Assembly (NCBI RefSeq): GCF_000526715.1
Contig: NZ_JAGP01000001.1
Coordinates: 1,922,001-1,986,000 of the forward strand
Source of the DNA: Hydrogenovibrio kuenenii DSM 12350
GTDB taxonomy: Bacteria; Pseudomonadota; Gammaproteobacteria; Thiomicrospirales; Thiomicrospiraceae
DNA length: 64,000 nucleotides
Direction: 5' to 3'
Part shown: in pieces, positions 43,063 through 48,049 of the stretch
Layout: each line of letters begins with the position of its first letter
Position numbering within the stretch: the stretch's first letter is position 1
Program-made: the position numbers and the translations under genes
Notes under the pieces: model-generated
Database searches by the model: none
Seen by the model: only the letters and a program-made list of their open reading frames with translations
Told to the model about the DNA's origin: nothing

Positions 43063-44283
43063 CTACGCAAGTTCTTCATGCGGCTTGGCTTTTAACACCA
43101 ATGCCGCAGCCAATATCACGAAAATAGACGACACAATTAAACTGGCCTCCATGCCTGCAAACTGATAGGTCAAACCTGACAGCAAAGTCCCGACTAAACG
43201 CCCTCCGGCATTCGCCATATAATAAAAACCAACATCTTTTGATGCGCCATCTTCATCAGCAAAAGACACGATTAAATAAGAATGCACCGCTGAGTTCAGC
43301 GCAAACACTACGCCAAAAATCATCAAGCCGACAACAATCACTGTTTGTGGATGCCAAGACAATAAAAACACCATTACAATTGGAATCAATGCCAAAACCA
43401 CTGCAAGCTTCATTGCGGTTAAAGAAGTCGGCTTATGTTGACCCGCCTCTATGTTTTTGCCTTTTTTCAGGCCCGTTAATTTTGGTGTTATCGCCTGCAC
43501 AAAACCATAACCAATCACCCATGCCGCCATAAATGTTCCCACCGCCATAAACGACCAACCGAGAACAGATTCCAAAAACACAGGTAGCGCCACCACAAAC
43601 CAAATATCTCGTGCACCAAATAAAAAGAAGCGTGCCGCAGACAACCAGTTGATGGCTTGTGACTTGGAAAAAATCTCACTGAACTTAGACTTGCCTTTCG
43701 CTTTACCAAGCGACTTATCCAATAGGAAAATGGATAAAATCAAAGGCAAAATAATGATAGCGACCAAAACATAGAGTGCATTGGTGAATCCAATACCCTC
43801 CAATAGAGCTGCGCCTATGAAAAAGCCAACGCCTTTTAACGCATTCTTTGACCCTGTCAGCAACGCTACCCAGGAATACAACTGCCCACTGGCATCAGAT
43901 GCCAAGCTTTTGATCGAGCTCTTTGCAGACATCTTGTTTAAATCTTTGGCAATACCGGATAATGCTTGAGCTGCCATTACATAAGCCACCGTTAAGTAGC
44001 TGACATCAACCGTGAGCATTAACAACGCAACTACTTGCAATACTAGGCCAAGATTCATCGTGACATTAAGACCTAATCTTGCGCCCAGCCAGCCGCCAAT
44101 CAGGTTAGTAACAACACCGAAAAATTCGTATAAAAGGAAAAGTAAGGCAATATCAAATGGAGAATAACCGAGTTGATTGAAGTAAAGCAACACCAACATA
44201 CGGATTGCACCATCTGTCAGGGTAAATGCCCAGTAGTTGGTTGTCACCAAACCATATTGCTGCAGTGCAGAGAGTCGAATCAT
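43063..44283 (-). CDS. arsJ: ArsJ-type organoarsenical efflux permease (MFS)
   Basis: A 406-residue major-facilitator protein with about 12 helices. The start LVTTNYWAFTLTDGAIRMLVLLYFNQLGYSPF and the association with a GAPDH gene identify the ArsJ family. ArsJ exports 1-arseno-3-phosphoglycerate, which GAPDH forms from arsenate and glyceraldehyde-3-phosphate and which then falls apart outside, giving arsenate resistance. ATG at 44283 is chosen; a longer frame starting with TTG at 44295 runs into the 18-bp repeat and is unlikely. It is the last gene of the ars block, with the repeat hairpin between it and gap. Confidence 0.87.
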   Translation of the reverse strand: MIRLSALQQYGLVTTNYWAFTLTDGAIRMLVLLYFNQLGYSPFDIALLFLLYEFFGVVTNLIGGWLGARLGLNVTMNLGLVLQVVALLMLTVDVSYLTVAYVMAAQALSGIAKDLNKMSAKSSIKSLASDASGQLYSWVALLTGSKNALKGVGFFIGAALLEGIGFTNALYVLVAIIILPLILSIFLLDKSLGKAKGKSKFSEIFSKSQAINWLSAARFFLFGARDIWFVVALPVFLESVLGWSFMAVGTFMAAWVIGYGFVQAITPKLTGLKKGKNIEAGQHKPTSLTAMKLAVVLALIPIVMVFLLSWHPQTVIVVGLMIFGVVFALNSAVHSYLIVSFADEDGASKDVGFYYMANAGGRLVGTLLSGLTYQFAGMEASLIVSSIFVILAAALVLKAKPHEELA

Positions 44284-44293
44284 AAGGTCATCC

Positions 44294-44345
44294 AAAATCT
44301 ACCAGGCTGGGACTTTGGCACGCCTGACCCAGCCTGGCAGATTTT
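44294..44345. terminator. Inverted pair of the 18-bp repeat between gap and arsJ
   Basis: AAAATCTACCAGGCTGGG (44294-44311) faces CCCAGCCTGGCAGATTTT (44328-44345), a stem of 18 bp with one A-C mismatch. The T-rich end follows the stem on the minus strand, so it could end or attenuate transcription coming from arsP-arsC-gap before arsJ. Its place inside a same-direction gene run is unlike the pairs at 4.1 and 37.1 kb. Confidence 0.7.
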
Positions 44346-44362: not shown

Positions 44363-45391
44363 TTAGTGGACTGAAGCGTTCAGCTGCCCGGCTTTTACTG
44401 CTAGTTCCATCATGCGAAGCACGTAACCGATTTCATTATCGTACCAAGCAAGTAACTTTACTTGTGTACCGCTAACTACCATTGTTGATGGTGCATCAAT
44501 CACCGATGAACAAGGTTCACCTTCAAAATCAACTGAAACCAACGGACGTTCTTCAAAACCTAAAATACCTTGCAAATAGGTTTCAGACGCGTCTTTTAAT
44601 AAAGCATTTACTTCTTCTACCGAAGTTTCACGCTCCATTTCCAATACCAAATCCGTTAGGGATGCATTCATAAAAGGCACCCGCACGGCAATACCATTTA
44701 AACGACCATTCAACTCTGGAAAAATCGTTCCGATGGCTTTTGCTGAACCTGTCGTCGTCGGGATCAGAGATTCAAACGATGCTCTTGCACGACGCAAATC
44801 AGCATGACCATGGTCGACCACTTTTTGCGTATTGGTGCGGTCATGCATAGTGGTAATCATGCCATGCTTGATACCGAGCTTTTCGTGCATGACTTTAATC
44901 ACGGGCGCAATACAGTTGGTGGTACAAGAAGCAGAGGTAATAATTGGATCTGCACCGGCAACAAACACGTCATCATTAATCCCCATGACGATGTTCTTAA
45001 TCCCCTCTTTCATCGGTGCTGCCACAATCACTTGCTTAATGCCTTGATGCATATAAGACTGCAATGCTTCTTTGGTGCGGAATTTACCTGTGGCTTCAAT
45101 CACCACATCCACATTCAAAGCAGCCCAGTCGGTATCTGCAATAGCAGCATTGCTTGAATAAGAGATAACCTGTTCTTCAATACAGATCATATTATTTTCG
45201 GTATCTGCAGACACTTCATGATGCCAGCGTCCATGCGCAGAATCAAAGTGAAGTAAATGCGCAGAACCAACCACATCCGTTGCGATTTCATTGATATGAA
45301 CGAACTCGACATGAGGCCAATCAAAAGCTTCTCTTAATGCCAAACGCCCCATTCTTCCAAATCCATTAATGGCAACACGAACTTTTTTCAT
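44363..45391 (-). CDS. gap: Glyceraldehyde-3-phosphate dehydrogenase of the ars cluster
   Basis: A 342-residue NAD-dependent GAPDH with the N-terminal Rossmann motif [18 protein letters not shown], the catalytic Cys in [11 protein letters not shown] and the His in HDRTNTQ. Next to arsJ it most likely serves arsenic resistance by making 1-arseno-3-phosphoglycerate, rather than being the main glycolytic enzyme; this is an inference from context. It follows arsC by 23 bases. Confidence 0.9.
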
Positions 45392-45414: not shown

Positions 45415-45906
45415 CTATGCGTCGTCAGCATCATCTAAAGCAGCAATTTCTTGCAAATGCTGTTGTAACTTCAAATGCTCTAACTTCTCGACAGGCAGTT
45501 CGGCAAACAGACGAATACGATTTTCCAAATAACGCAACGCATCTTTAAAAGGCTTCACATCATCACTACCAGCAACTACAGGGTCTTCAATTCCCCAGTG
45601 AGCCAGCGCAGGGTGTCCCGGCCAAGTTGGGCAAACTTCGCCCTTCGCCGAGTCACAAACGGTAATAATCAAATCCATATGCGGTGCACCTGGTTGAGAA
45701 AATTCATCCCAACTTTTCGAACGCAACCCTTCTGTCTGAAGTTGTGCATTATTTAACAGCTCTAACGCTATCGGATTCACTTTTCCCGCTGGTTTACTTC
45801 CCGCACTATAAGCCTTAAAGCGTCCATCGGAACAATTGTTCAATAACACTTCCGCCATAATGCTACGTGCCGAATTTCCGGTACATAAAAATAAAACGTT
45901 AAACAT
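45415..45906 (-). CDS. arsC: Arsenate reductase ArsC, thioredoxin-coupled type
   Basis: A 163-residue enzyme of the low-molecular-weight phosphatase fold that reduces arsenate to arsenite. The catalytic loop is CTGNSARS (C-x5-R), and the two resolving cysteines are in TVCDSAKGEVCPTWPG, so the enzyme should be recycled by thioredoxin. ATG at 45906 has GGGAG six bases upstream. It lies between the Cys-rich thioredoxin-like gene and gap, giving the cell two arsenate routes: reduction and conversion to arseno-phosphoglycerate. Confidence 0.93.
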   Translation of the reverse strand: MFNVLFLCTGNSARSIMAEVLLNNCSDGRFKAYSAGSKPAGKVNPIALELLNNAQLQTEGLRSKSWDEFSQPGAPHMDLIITVCDSAKGEVCPTWPGHPALAHWGIEDPVVAGSDDVKPFKDALRYLENRIRLFAELPVEKLEHLKLQQHLQEIAALDDADDA

Positions 45907-45979: not shown

Positions 45980-46591
45980 TTATTTTTTAGGCGCTTGCTC
46001 AAGCCAGTCTTGGATTTTCTCTTTTGATGGGATGCTGCCAGAGTGAATCACTTCTTCGCTAATAACAACGGCTGGCGTTGACATTACGCCGTATTCCAAA
46101 ATTTTAGCGACATCATGAACAGCAACCACATTCACAGCAACACCCATTTCTTGCGCAACAGTTTCAATACGTTTAATGGTGCTTTCGCAGTTTGCACAAC
46201 CTGAACCTAAAACCTTGATGACCATTCCTTCTTCTGAAGAACCACAACAGGTGCCCTCAGCATTGTCCGAACAACATGACTCTTCTTTTGTATCTGAACA
46301 ACAAGCATCATCCTTTGTATCCGAACAACAAGACGATTCTGTCTTTTTAGGTTCAGCACTTGATGATGAACAACTTCCGCCAGGACAACATTCACCAGAT
46401 TTAGAAAACTTCCCTATCAAGTTGCTTGGGCACCATCCTGTAAAAGTGGCTTGCAATCCCATGAAAGCAGCGAACATACTCAACCATAACCAATTCATCT
46501 GGAACAAATTAACTTGTCCATATACATGCGCCAAAATAATCGACAACAGAATCATCGAAGTCATCATACGAACCATTAAATTATCTTTCAT
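45980..46591 (-). CDS. Membrane-anchored protein with Cys-Cys repeat linker and thioredoxin-like domain
   Basis: A 203-residue fusion. Residues 1-62 are a DUF2892/YgaP-like membrane segment with a GWCPSNLIGKF end. Residues 66-122 are a cysteine-rich linker with 11 Cys, including four tandem nine-residue units of the form xCC[SG][DS]xx[DE]x (CC at 88-89, 97-98, 106-107, 115-116). Residues 124-200 form a small thioredoxin-like domain of the redox-active disulfide protein 2 type with GSGCANC. The linker suggests binding of arsenite or metals; the thioredoxin part could reduce ArsC or a bound thiol complex. Both are inference. AGGAG precedes the ATG. It follows arsP by 21 bases. Confidence 0.8.
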   Translation of the reverse strand: MKDNLMVRMMTSMILLSIILAHVYGQVNLFQMNWLWLSMFAAFMGLQATFTGWCPSNLIGKFSKSGECCPGGSCSSSSAEPKKTESSCCSDTKDDACCSDTKEESCCSDNAEGTCCGSSEEGMVIKVLGSGCANCESTIKRIETVAQEMGVAVNVVAVHDVAKILEYGVMSTPAVVISEEVIHSGSIPSKEKIQDWLEQAPKK

Positions 46592-46612
46592 GCCTTTAAC
46601 TCCTAAGTAAAA

Positions 46613-47578
46613 CTAAGCAAACAAAAAATTAAATAAATAACCAACCAATATAAAAGCGACACTCAATACGCCAACAAATGCAGCCAATGCAGGCCAACGA
46701 ATCACTTTTCTTAAAATCAATAATTCAGGTAATGACAAAGCAGCAATACTCATCATCAATGCCAAACTGGTACCAATCGGCACGCCTTTATTCAGCATAG
46801 CTTCAACAATAGGTACCACGCCTGTTGCATTAGAATAAAGAGGCACACCTAGCAATACTGCCGCAGGCACAGACCACCAGTTTGAACTACCGCTCAAATA
46901 AGTTGTTACCCACTCTTGCGGAACATAGCCATGGAATAAAGCACCAAGCCCTACCCCGACAACGATCCACTTCCAAATTCGGTTTACGATTGTTTTTACT
47001 TCTTCACGGGCAAACTGATGACGCTGCGTCCAAGTCATTTTTTCATTCATCGCACCCTTTGCTGAGCCGTGGCTTTTCAATTCCCACACATAAGATTCTA
47101 CCCAGCGCTCAGGCTTAAACCACTCAAGTACAATAGAACCTATATAGGCTACGACTAAACCAGCAGCTACATAAAGCAACGTGACTTTCCAACCCAAAAT
47201 ACTCCAGAGCAATACTACTGCGACTTCATTAATCATTGGGCTGGCAATTAGAAACGCAAAGGTAATCCCCATCGGAATTCTTGCTTCCACAAAACCAACA
47301 AACAAGGGAACTGATGAACAAGAACAAAAAGGTGTCACACTACCCAGCGTAATTGCCAAACTTCTGGCCACCCATTTAGCTCTGCCCTGCACTTTATCTC
47401 GAATCCACTCGGTTGAAACAAATGCTCTAAATAAGCCAATGACATAAATAATCACCACCAGCATGAAAAATATCTTCAAAAGATCCATTACAAAAAAGTG
47501 TAAGGAATCTGCTGCTTGCGTATGCTCAGTCATAGATAAGACTTGATACACGAAAAAATTTGCAATTTGATCAAACAT
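46613..47578 (-). CDS. arsP: ArsP-type permease (DUF318 family)
   Basis: A 321-residue inner-membrane permease of the DUF318/ArsP family with about eight helices. Visible marks are LGSVTPFCSCSSVPLFVGFVEARIPMG and PLYSNATGVVPIVEAMLNKGVP; the FCSCSS cysteines are typical of the family. Characterised ArsP proteins export trivalent organoarsenicals such as MAs(III) and roxarsone(III); others may export different ions, so the substrate is open. First gene of the ars transcript, starting 45 bases after the operator. Confidence 0.83.
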   Translation of the reverse strand: MFDQIANFFVYQVLSMTEHTQAADSLHFFVMDLLKIFFMLVVIIYVIGLFRAFVSTEWIRDKVQGRAKWVARSLAITLGSVTPFCSCSSVPLFVGFVEARIPMGITFAFLIASPMINEVAVVLLWSILGWKVTLLYVAAGLVVAYIGSIVLEWFKPERWVESYVWELKSHGSAKGAMNEKMTWTQRHQFAREEVKTIVNRIWKWIVVGVGLGALFHGYVPQEWVTTYLSGSSNWWSVPAAVLLGVPLYSNATGVVPIVEAMLNKGVPIGTSLALMMSIAALSLPELLILRKVIRWPALAAFVGVLSVAFILVGYLFNFLFA

Positions 47579-47619: not shown

Positions 47620-47648
47620 ATAATATCCGTTTATACGGATATATTCAA
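47620..47648 (-). promoter_or_regulatory. Promoter and candidate ArsR operator of the ars operon
   Basis: On the minus strand TTGAAT (47643-47648) and TATTAT (47620-47625) are spaced 17 bases. The spacer and -10 are covered by a perfect palindrome, ATATCCGT-TTAT-ACGGATAT (47623-47642). The overlap fits repression by ArsR, encoded divergently 57 bases away, with release on arsenite binding. Confidence 0.7.
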
Positions 47649-47698: not shown

Positions 47699-48049
47699 AT
47701 GACGAGTATTGAAGCCTATAGCCAGTTTTTTAAAGCTTTGAGCGAACCTATGCGCTTACGTATTCTCTACTTATTACTTAACAGAGAAGACCTTTGTGTT
47801 TGTGATTTTGTCACTGTCATGCAAGCTGGACAAAGTCTTATCTCAAGACACTTGGCCTATTTAAAAAACGCCGGTTGGGTTAAATCTCATCGCCAAGGTA
47901 CTTGGATGCATTATCAAATTGAAACCACTAACCTACCGATGACTTATCTGGAAACCCTAAAAGAACAACTTAGCCAGATTGAAACTTGCCAACAAGACCT
48001 TACATCGCTTGAGACTTACGAAACGCAAGAAAGACAATGTAATATCTAA
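47699..48049 (+). CDS. arsR: ArsR/SmtB-family arsenical repressor
   Basis: A 116-residue winged-helix repressor. It has FFKALSEPMRLRILYLLL, the metalloid-binding LCVCDF (Cys pair in helix 3) and GQSLISRHLAYLKNAGWVKSHRQGTW as recognition helix. Binding of arsenite to the cysteines should release it from DNA. Divergent from arsP, with the palindromic operator between. Length is typical. Confidence 0.9.
   Translation: MTSIEAYSQFFKALSEPMRLRILYLLLNREDLCVCDFVTVMQAGQSLISRHLAYLKNAGWVKSHRQGTWMHYQIETTNLPMTYLETLKEQLSQIETCQQDLTSLETYETQERQCNI

Follow-up and report, generated by a model that had tools for sequence, protein, structure and literature searches.

The window (the whole stretch of DNA analysed, 64,000 nucleotides from Hydrogenovibrio kuenenii DSM 12350) comes from a sulphur-oxidising marine bacterium and carries an ars operon on its reverse strand. 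The gene order is ArsP_1 permease, a gene whose product joins a membrane segment (TM), vicinal cysteine pairs (CC) and a thioredoxin-like domain (Trx), then arsC, a gene for an ArsJ-associated GAPDH, and arsJ. Only 21 bases separate the first two genes, and an arsR-type gene is divergent from the operon.

The permease (46613..47578, minus strand; 321 amino acids) matches PF03773 with 239 bits (cut-off 32.3). It has just two cysteines, C85 and C87, so that almost all thiols of the permease/partner pair are on the partner. The two lie in the sequence TPFCSCS, which corresponds to the tPF form described for cluster 2 (PMC4435449). With a score of 97.5 against a cut-off of 300 for NF033936, it is not a member of the SO_0444 family. 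The downstream genes, also on the minus strand, encode an arsenate reductase of the LMWP fold (ArsC, 45415..45906; CTGNSARS, with two further cysteines in ITVCD and EVCP), which scores below the curated ArsC cut-offs, the ArsJ-associated GAPDH (44363..45391; NF033735, 525.5 bits, cut-off 450) and ArsJ, the 1-arseno-3-phosphoglycerate transporter (43063..44295; NF033734, 577.7 bits, cut-off 400). The divergent ArsR-family regulator (47699..48049, plus strand) has a CVC motif (C33, C35). Between arsR and the permease gene lies a perfect 8+8 palindrome, ATATCCGT-TTAT-ACGGATAT (47623..47642), which is likely to be the ArsR operator. No arsA was seen in the operon, and neither ArsF nor ArsG among the ORFs flanking the TM-CC-Trx gene (permease, ArsC, GAPDH, ArsJ and ArsR).

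Architecture of the TM-CC-Trx protein

The protein (45980..46591, minus strand; 203 amino acids) is recognised by Thioredoxin_3 (3.6e-24) and by TIGR00412 (88.4 bits, cut-off 62). It begins with a YgaP-like membrane hairpin (46418..46573, minus strand; residues 7-58) that ends in TGWCP. In the Pfam search this hairpin remains below the gathering cut-off for PF11127 (YgaP-like TM/DUF2892; 21.3 bits against 25.3), which is passed by three homologues: L106 (46.6 bits), L122 (30.0) and L131 (30.4). The AlphaFold2 (AF2) model places two helices in it, at residues 5-23 and 35-51. At the other end is a thioredoxin-like domain of the ArsE/MTH895 type (45998..46225, minus strand; residues 123-198), with GCANC at 131-135 (C132, C135) and the cis-Pro motif STPA. 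The model gives a confident thioredoxin fold over residues 121-200, and the closest structure to this domain is MTH895 (1ilo; VIA Z 10.3, rmsd 2.2, 77 aligned). Both the membrane hairpin and the thioredoxin domain are predicted with confidence.

Between them lies a linker that is predicted to be disordered (pLDDT <50 over residues 63-118). It contains CCPGGSC, a CC-x4-C motif (46370..46390, minus strand; residues 68-74), followed by four nine-residue CC units (46226..46333, minus strand; residues 87-122) that read SCCSDTKDD/ACCSDTKEE/SCCSDNAEG/TCCGSSEEG. The CC pairs therefore start at residues 68, 88, 97, 106 and 115, with an additional C74. These features had been described in an initial annotation of this DNA, which was accurate on the location of the four units (exactly residues 87-122) and of their cysteine pairs, on the further CC at 68-69 with C74 and on the GCANC motif; the membrane tethering that it proposed agrees with the two modelled helices and the YgaP-like domain. 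An ORF on the opposite strand (46176-46610, plus strand) with SSFVSEQQ repeats was read as an antisense shadow of the CC units.

Conservation of the cysteine pairs

At the DNA level the CC array has a 27-bp period (Tandem Repeats Finder (TRF) score 96). Units 1 and 2 are identical at 22 of 27 bases and the remaining unit pairs at 12-17 of 27; only part of the array therefore represents a recent duplication. To measure pairing, each linker was shuffled in 2000 trials. Ten of the 11 linker cysteines in the query are paired, against 3.0 in the shuffles, and across 22 homologues the figure is 188/223 (shuffle mean 54, maximum 84). Among six independent close pairs of proteins, conservation holds for 55 of 59 linker cysteines but for only 263 of the 381 remaining linker residues (p 3e-5); the CC pairs therefore persist as the sequence around them drifts. 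By these sequence measures cysteine pairing is under selection.

The period itself behaves differently. The best-matching named relatives, those of highest identity, belong to Hydrogenovibrio, Thiomicrospira and Thiomicrorhabdus. In the orthologues nearest to the query (75-77% identical) there are two nine-residue CC units, not four, with CC spacings of 18 and 9. Across homologues the number of CC pairs in the linker ranges from 2 to 6 and their spacing from 6 to 36, which rules out the nine-residue period as a conserved trait. On this comparison a conserved property has been expanded locally into the nine-residue array. The CC-x4-C motif is found in 22 of the 32 homologues with fused domains, including all four with reversed domain order; when CC blocks and residues were shuffled the mean was 6.6 and the maximum 15, but since the homologues are related this enrichment is a guide and not a probability.

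A frame-blind DNA pattern for three CC, applied to the whole genome, gave 35 matches, few of them open in frame besides the query gene. The other in-frame, stop-free matches were Cys-rich strings resembling shadow frames and were rejected. Because of its gap limit, the pattern also missed the CC-rich loop of an SO_0444-family protein encoded in the same genome (see below), and it is therefore not evidence that the array is unique.

Recurrence beside the permease

We analysed 132 non-redundant loci with the Trx domain, sampled by similarity to the query and not at random. In 122 of them an ArsP_1 permease is encoded in the same orientation no more than 3 kb away, and most of the others are at contig ends. 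Fused proteins occur at 32 loci, 28 as TM-CC-Trx and 4 as Trx-CC-TM, every one with at least two CC; 31 of these 32 have the permease within 3 kb. An arsC gene is nearby in only five (6/33 if the window is included). The constant partner is, on gene neighbourhood, the permease and not ArsC, and the suggestion in the initial annotation that the protein keeps ArsC reduced is disfavoured. At 33 other loci a small CC-tailed protein is encoded separately nearby, again with at least two CC in all 33 cases; this companion has a sub-threshold CMD-like domain. The CC segment thus recurs around the ArsP_1 permease in three arrangements: TM-CC-Trx, Trx-CC-TM and a separate CC-tailed protein.

The initial annotation had named ars homologues that keep full function without CC repeats as possible evidence against its reading, and this applies in part: 67 of the 132 loci lack both a fused TM-CC part and a CC-tailed companion, so the core permease/Trx pair does not need the repeats. 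Such CC-free pairs are common in Campylobacterota and Chromatiaceae, which makes the arm an add-on. In a tree of the permeases the reversed fusions fall in a distant clade, while the Sulfurovum TM-CC-Trx lies among CC-free Campylobacterota. The tree thus needs at least two separate placements of the TM-CC-Trx arrangement (two changes, bootstrap 2-3), with the reversed form in addition. Nitratiruptor NIS_RS00150 was considered as a CC-fused protein and set aside; Campylobacterota relatives are mostly CC-free.

Several variants were encountered at individual loci. In L131-L134 (genomes G011, G017, G024 and G028) the order is Trx, CC segment and a TM hairpin ending in KKSCC, and a more distant ArsP_1 permease adjoins. 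In G023 (L136:6833-7327 and the CC-tailed protein encoded just upstream) the gene between those for the permease and a single-domain thioredoxin codes for a small CMD-like protein of its own, with six CC pairs. At L141:6022-6354 (plus strand) and L137:7590-7958 (minus strand) there are paralogous TM-hairpin proteins that have a short CC tail but lack the thioredoxin domain, and two relatives have a second small TM-hairpin protein between the permease and TM-CC-Trx (L118:7212-7553 and L119:7796-8101). CC-rich extensions seem to be common on ars proteins. For example, an ArsI/CadI-family enzyme has a multi-CC tail (L043:2991-3675, plus strand), and flavoproteins near ars genes have multi-CC N-termini (L102:14564-16102 and L107:12041-13792, both plus strand; L102 has a weak ArsO match).

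The same genome also encodes a paralogue of the permease that belongs to the SO_0444 Cu/Zn efflux family (G000:C1, about 2306597-2307700; L151:5597-6700, plus strand). It is a full member (NF033936, 426.3 bits, cut-off 300) and its central loop includes three CC units, ASCCHEEAPKSSCCSTEKAEETDKEESCCGAEK. One to four CC are present in the central loop of most SO_0444-family proteins examined.

Candidate ligands and arsenite export

Arsenite exporters were surveyed in 34 genomes of the family. An ArsP_1 permease is present in 30, with the Trx partner adjoining in all but one (a broken contig). Above cut-off, these 30 genomes include no ACR3 and four ArsB; 26 of the 30 are without either. Among the four genomes lacking the permease, two have ACR3 and one has ArsB (p 0.02 for the contrast, with kinship ignored). 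No ArsM arsenite methyltransferase was found above cut-off in the 34 genomes, and self-made methylarsenite is therefore an unlikely substrate. Most of the genomes have genes of the arsC Pfam family, which is weak evidence because this family also contains Spx/YffB-type proteins. Taken together, the exporter pattern, the lack of an ArsM above cut-off and the arsC genes would fit inorganic As(III) as a substrate, although C. jejuni ArsP does not transport it (PMC6205960).

How As(III) reacts with vicinal thiols is well-established chemistry, and we consider it probable that the linker binds a metal or metalloid. For arsenite as a main ligand the chances appear to be slightly below even. In Nitratiruptor, Cd and Cu induce an operon of permease, Trx and ArsC genes (PMC10092412); together with the Cu/Zn role of SO_0444, this means that the ligand may not be arsenic.

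Interpretation

Our preferred reading, to which we give about an even chance, is that the protein assists the adjoining ArsP_1 permease as an accessory subunit anchored in the membrane, providing a thiol arm that would capture As(III) or other soft metal ions. In its favour are the paired and conserved cysteines, the constant permease neighbour, the recurrence of the CC segment in different arrangements, the cis version in the SO_0444 paralogue, the ArsD-like CC-x4-C spacing and the exporter and ArsM survey; the common CC-free pairs, the Cd- and Cu-induced operon, the Cu/Zn role of SO_0444 and the failure of C. jejuni ArsP to export inorganic arsenite count against it. The hairpin would keep the linker at the cytosolic face beside the permease, where the CC pairs and the CC-x4-C motif would take up As(III) and probably also Sb(III) and further soft metal ions. 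Thiol exchange would then bring the load to the CSC motif of the permease, perhaps by way of the thioredoxin domain with its GCANC; this domain may either relay the load or regenerate the thiols. Additional CC units would increase capacity and reach without bringing a new activity. Whether the load is in fact handed to the permease is, in our estimate, evenly balanced. The initial annotation had proposed a membrane-tethered arsenite or metal trap serving the permease. The trap fits both the gene order and the version in cis found in SO_0444, but As(III) may not be the sole ligand.

The protein might instead be a membrane-tethered, metallothionein-like sponge that buffers Cu(I), Cd(II) or Zn(II) as well as As(III), with no directed transfer to the permease. 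The number (2-6) and spacing of the CC pairs vary freely, as they would in a capacity device, the same repeats occur in the loop of the SO_0444 Cu/Zn permease, and a related permease-Trx operon is Cd- and Cu-responsive (PMC10092412). A pure sponge, however, would need neither a membrane anchor nor a constant permease neighbour, and one sponge per membrane protein would have a low capacity; we regard this explanation as unlikely, at perhaps half the weight of an accessory subunit. A further explanation is a drifting low-complexity repeat that merely joins two domains. The 27-bp repeat in the DNA, with first two units identical at 22 of 27 bases, and the different CC numbers of close relatives are what such a spacer would give. 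It is largely refuted by the conservation test, in which cysteines are kept and paired far above chance while their neighbours change, and by the recurrence of the CC feature with different anchors and in a paralogue, and is therefore very improbable.

A redox role is also rather improbable, less so than the spacer. Here the Trx domain would reduce ArsC or, in the manner of ArsE with ArsF, (nitro-)arsenicals; the CC linker would be no more than an electron relay or a redox-sensitive hinge. The domain lies within the MTH895/ArsE family and arsC is the next gene in the operon. In addition, Castillo and Saier proposed that redox-active disulfide protein 2 works together with ArsC (PMC2963123). 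Against this, arsC is rare near the fused relatives (5/32), ArsF and ArsG were not seen among the ORFs adjoining the gene, and four to six CC pairs would be superfluous for reduction.

An accessory thiol arm of this kind may have a wider meaning, which we put forward tentatively and rate at somewhat worse than even. The ArsP_1 superfamily would share a delivery principle in which a disordered CC arm at the cytosolic face is supplied in cis (the SO_0444 loop) or in trans by unrelated anchors (a TM hairpin, a thioredoxin or a CMD-like helical protein) that were recruited or rearranged repeatedly, and in the relatives of Thiomicrospira the unit would replace ACR3/ArsB as the arsenite exporter. 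If true, this would give a testable answer to how Cys-poor ArsP-type permeases obtain trivalent arsenic or soft metals, link the arsenic and Cu/Zn branches of the superfamily by a common disordered thiol arm, account for arsenic resistance in many sulphur-oxidising bacteria that lack the standard arsenite exporters and provide a compact metalloid-binding module that could be tuned for biosensing or remediation.

Comparison with known systems

The Trx family, the permease family, ArsJ with its GAPDH, and ArsD are already known. In the literature covered by a limited search we found no description of a linker with variable CC repeats, of the domain reversal or of the counterpart in cis. The N-terminal hairpin is that of the YgaP-like TM proteins (PF11127/DUF2892), with the conserved TGxCP ending, but here there is no rhodanese domain and the hairpin is fused to the CC linker and Trx. 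By profile and fold the C-terminal domain is a member of the MTH895/ArsE family (TIGR00412, PF13192; 1ilo), whose typical members are soluble proteins of 75-80 amino acids that have no TM or CC segment. Characterised ArsE works with ArsF and ArsG, and both are found beside ArsE in Shewanella (L105). Unlike this roxarsone/nitarsone system (ArsEFG), the genes flanking TM-CC-Trx include no ArsF or ArsG.

Among permeases, the SO_0444 family is part of the ArsP_1 superfamily and carries tandem CC repeats in cis in its central loop, whereas here the permease has the CSC cysteines alone and the partner protein carries the repeats. Growth under stress from Zn or Cu requires SO_0444 (PMC3219624). Castillo and Saier described ArsP forms in which a hydrophilic insertion separates TMS 4 from TMS 5 (PMC2963123), without discussion of CC content in the portion of the article consulted. 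Campylobacter jejuni ArsP is of the same superfamily and has a C(S/T)C motif (PMC4435449); it exports trivalent organoarsenicals and not inorganic arsenite (PMC6205960), and no CC partner for it is reported in the literature searched.

The ArsD fold is thioredoxin-like. The CC-x4-C site of ArsD (Cys12/13/18) binds As(III) and is required for chaperone activity, and ArsD has extra CC pairs too (PMC4562236). C68, C69 and C74 of the linker have the same spacing, which is a resemblance only: here the motif lies in the linker, outside the Trx fold, the protein is membrane-anchored and its partner is a permease, not ArsA. The ArsD profile (PF06953) gave no match to the protein at E up to 1 and a weak sub-threshold match in a permuted (Trx-CC-TM) homologue; ArsD is absent among the structural matches listed for the Trx domain. 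The best reading, by analogy, is of a membrane-tethered thiol arm that would work like ArsD without belonging to the ArsD family.
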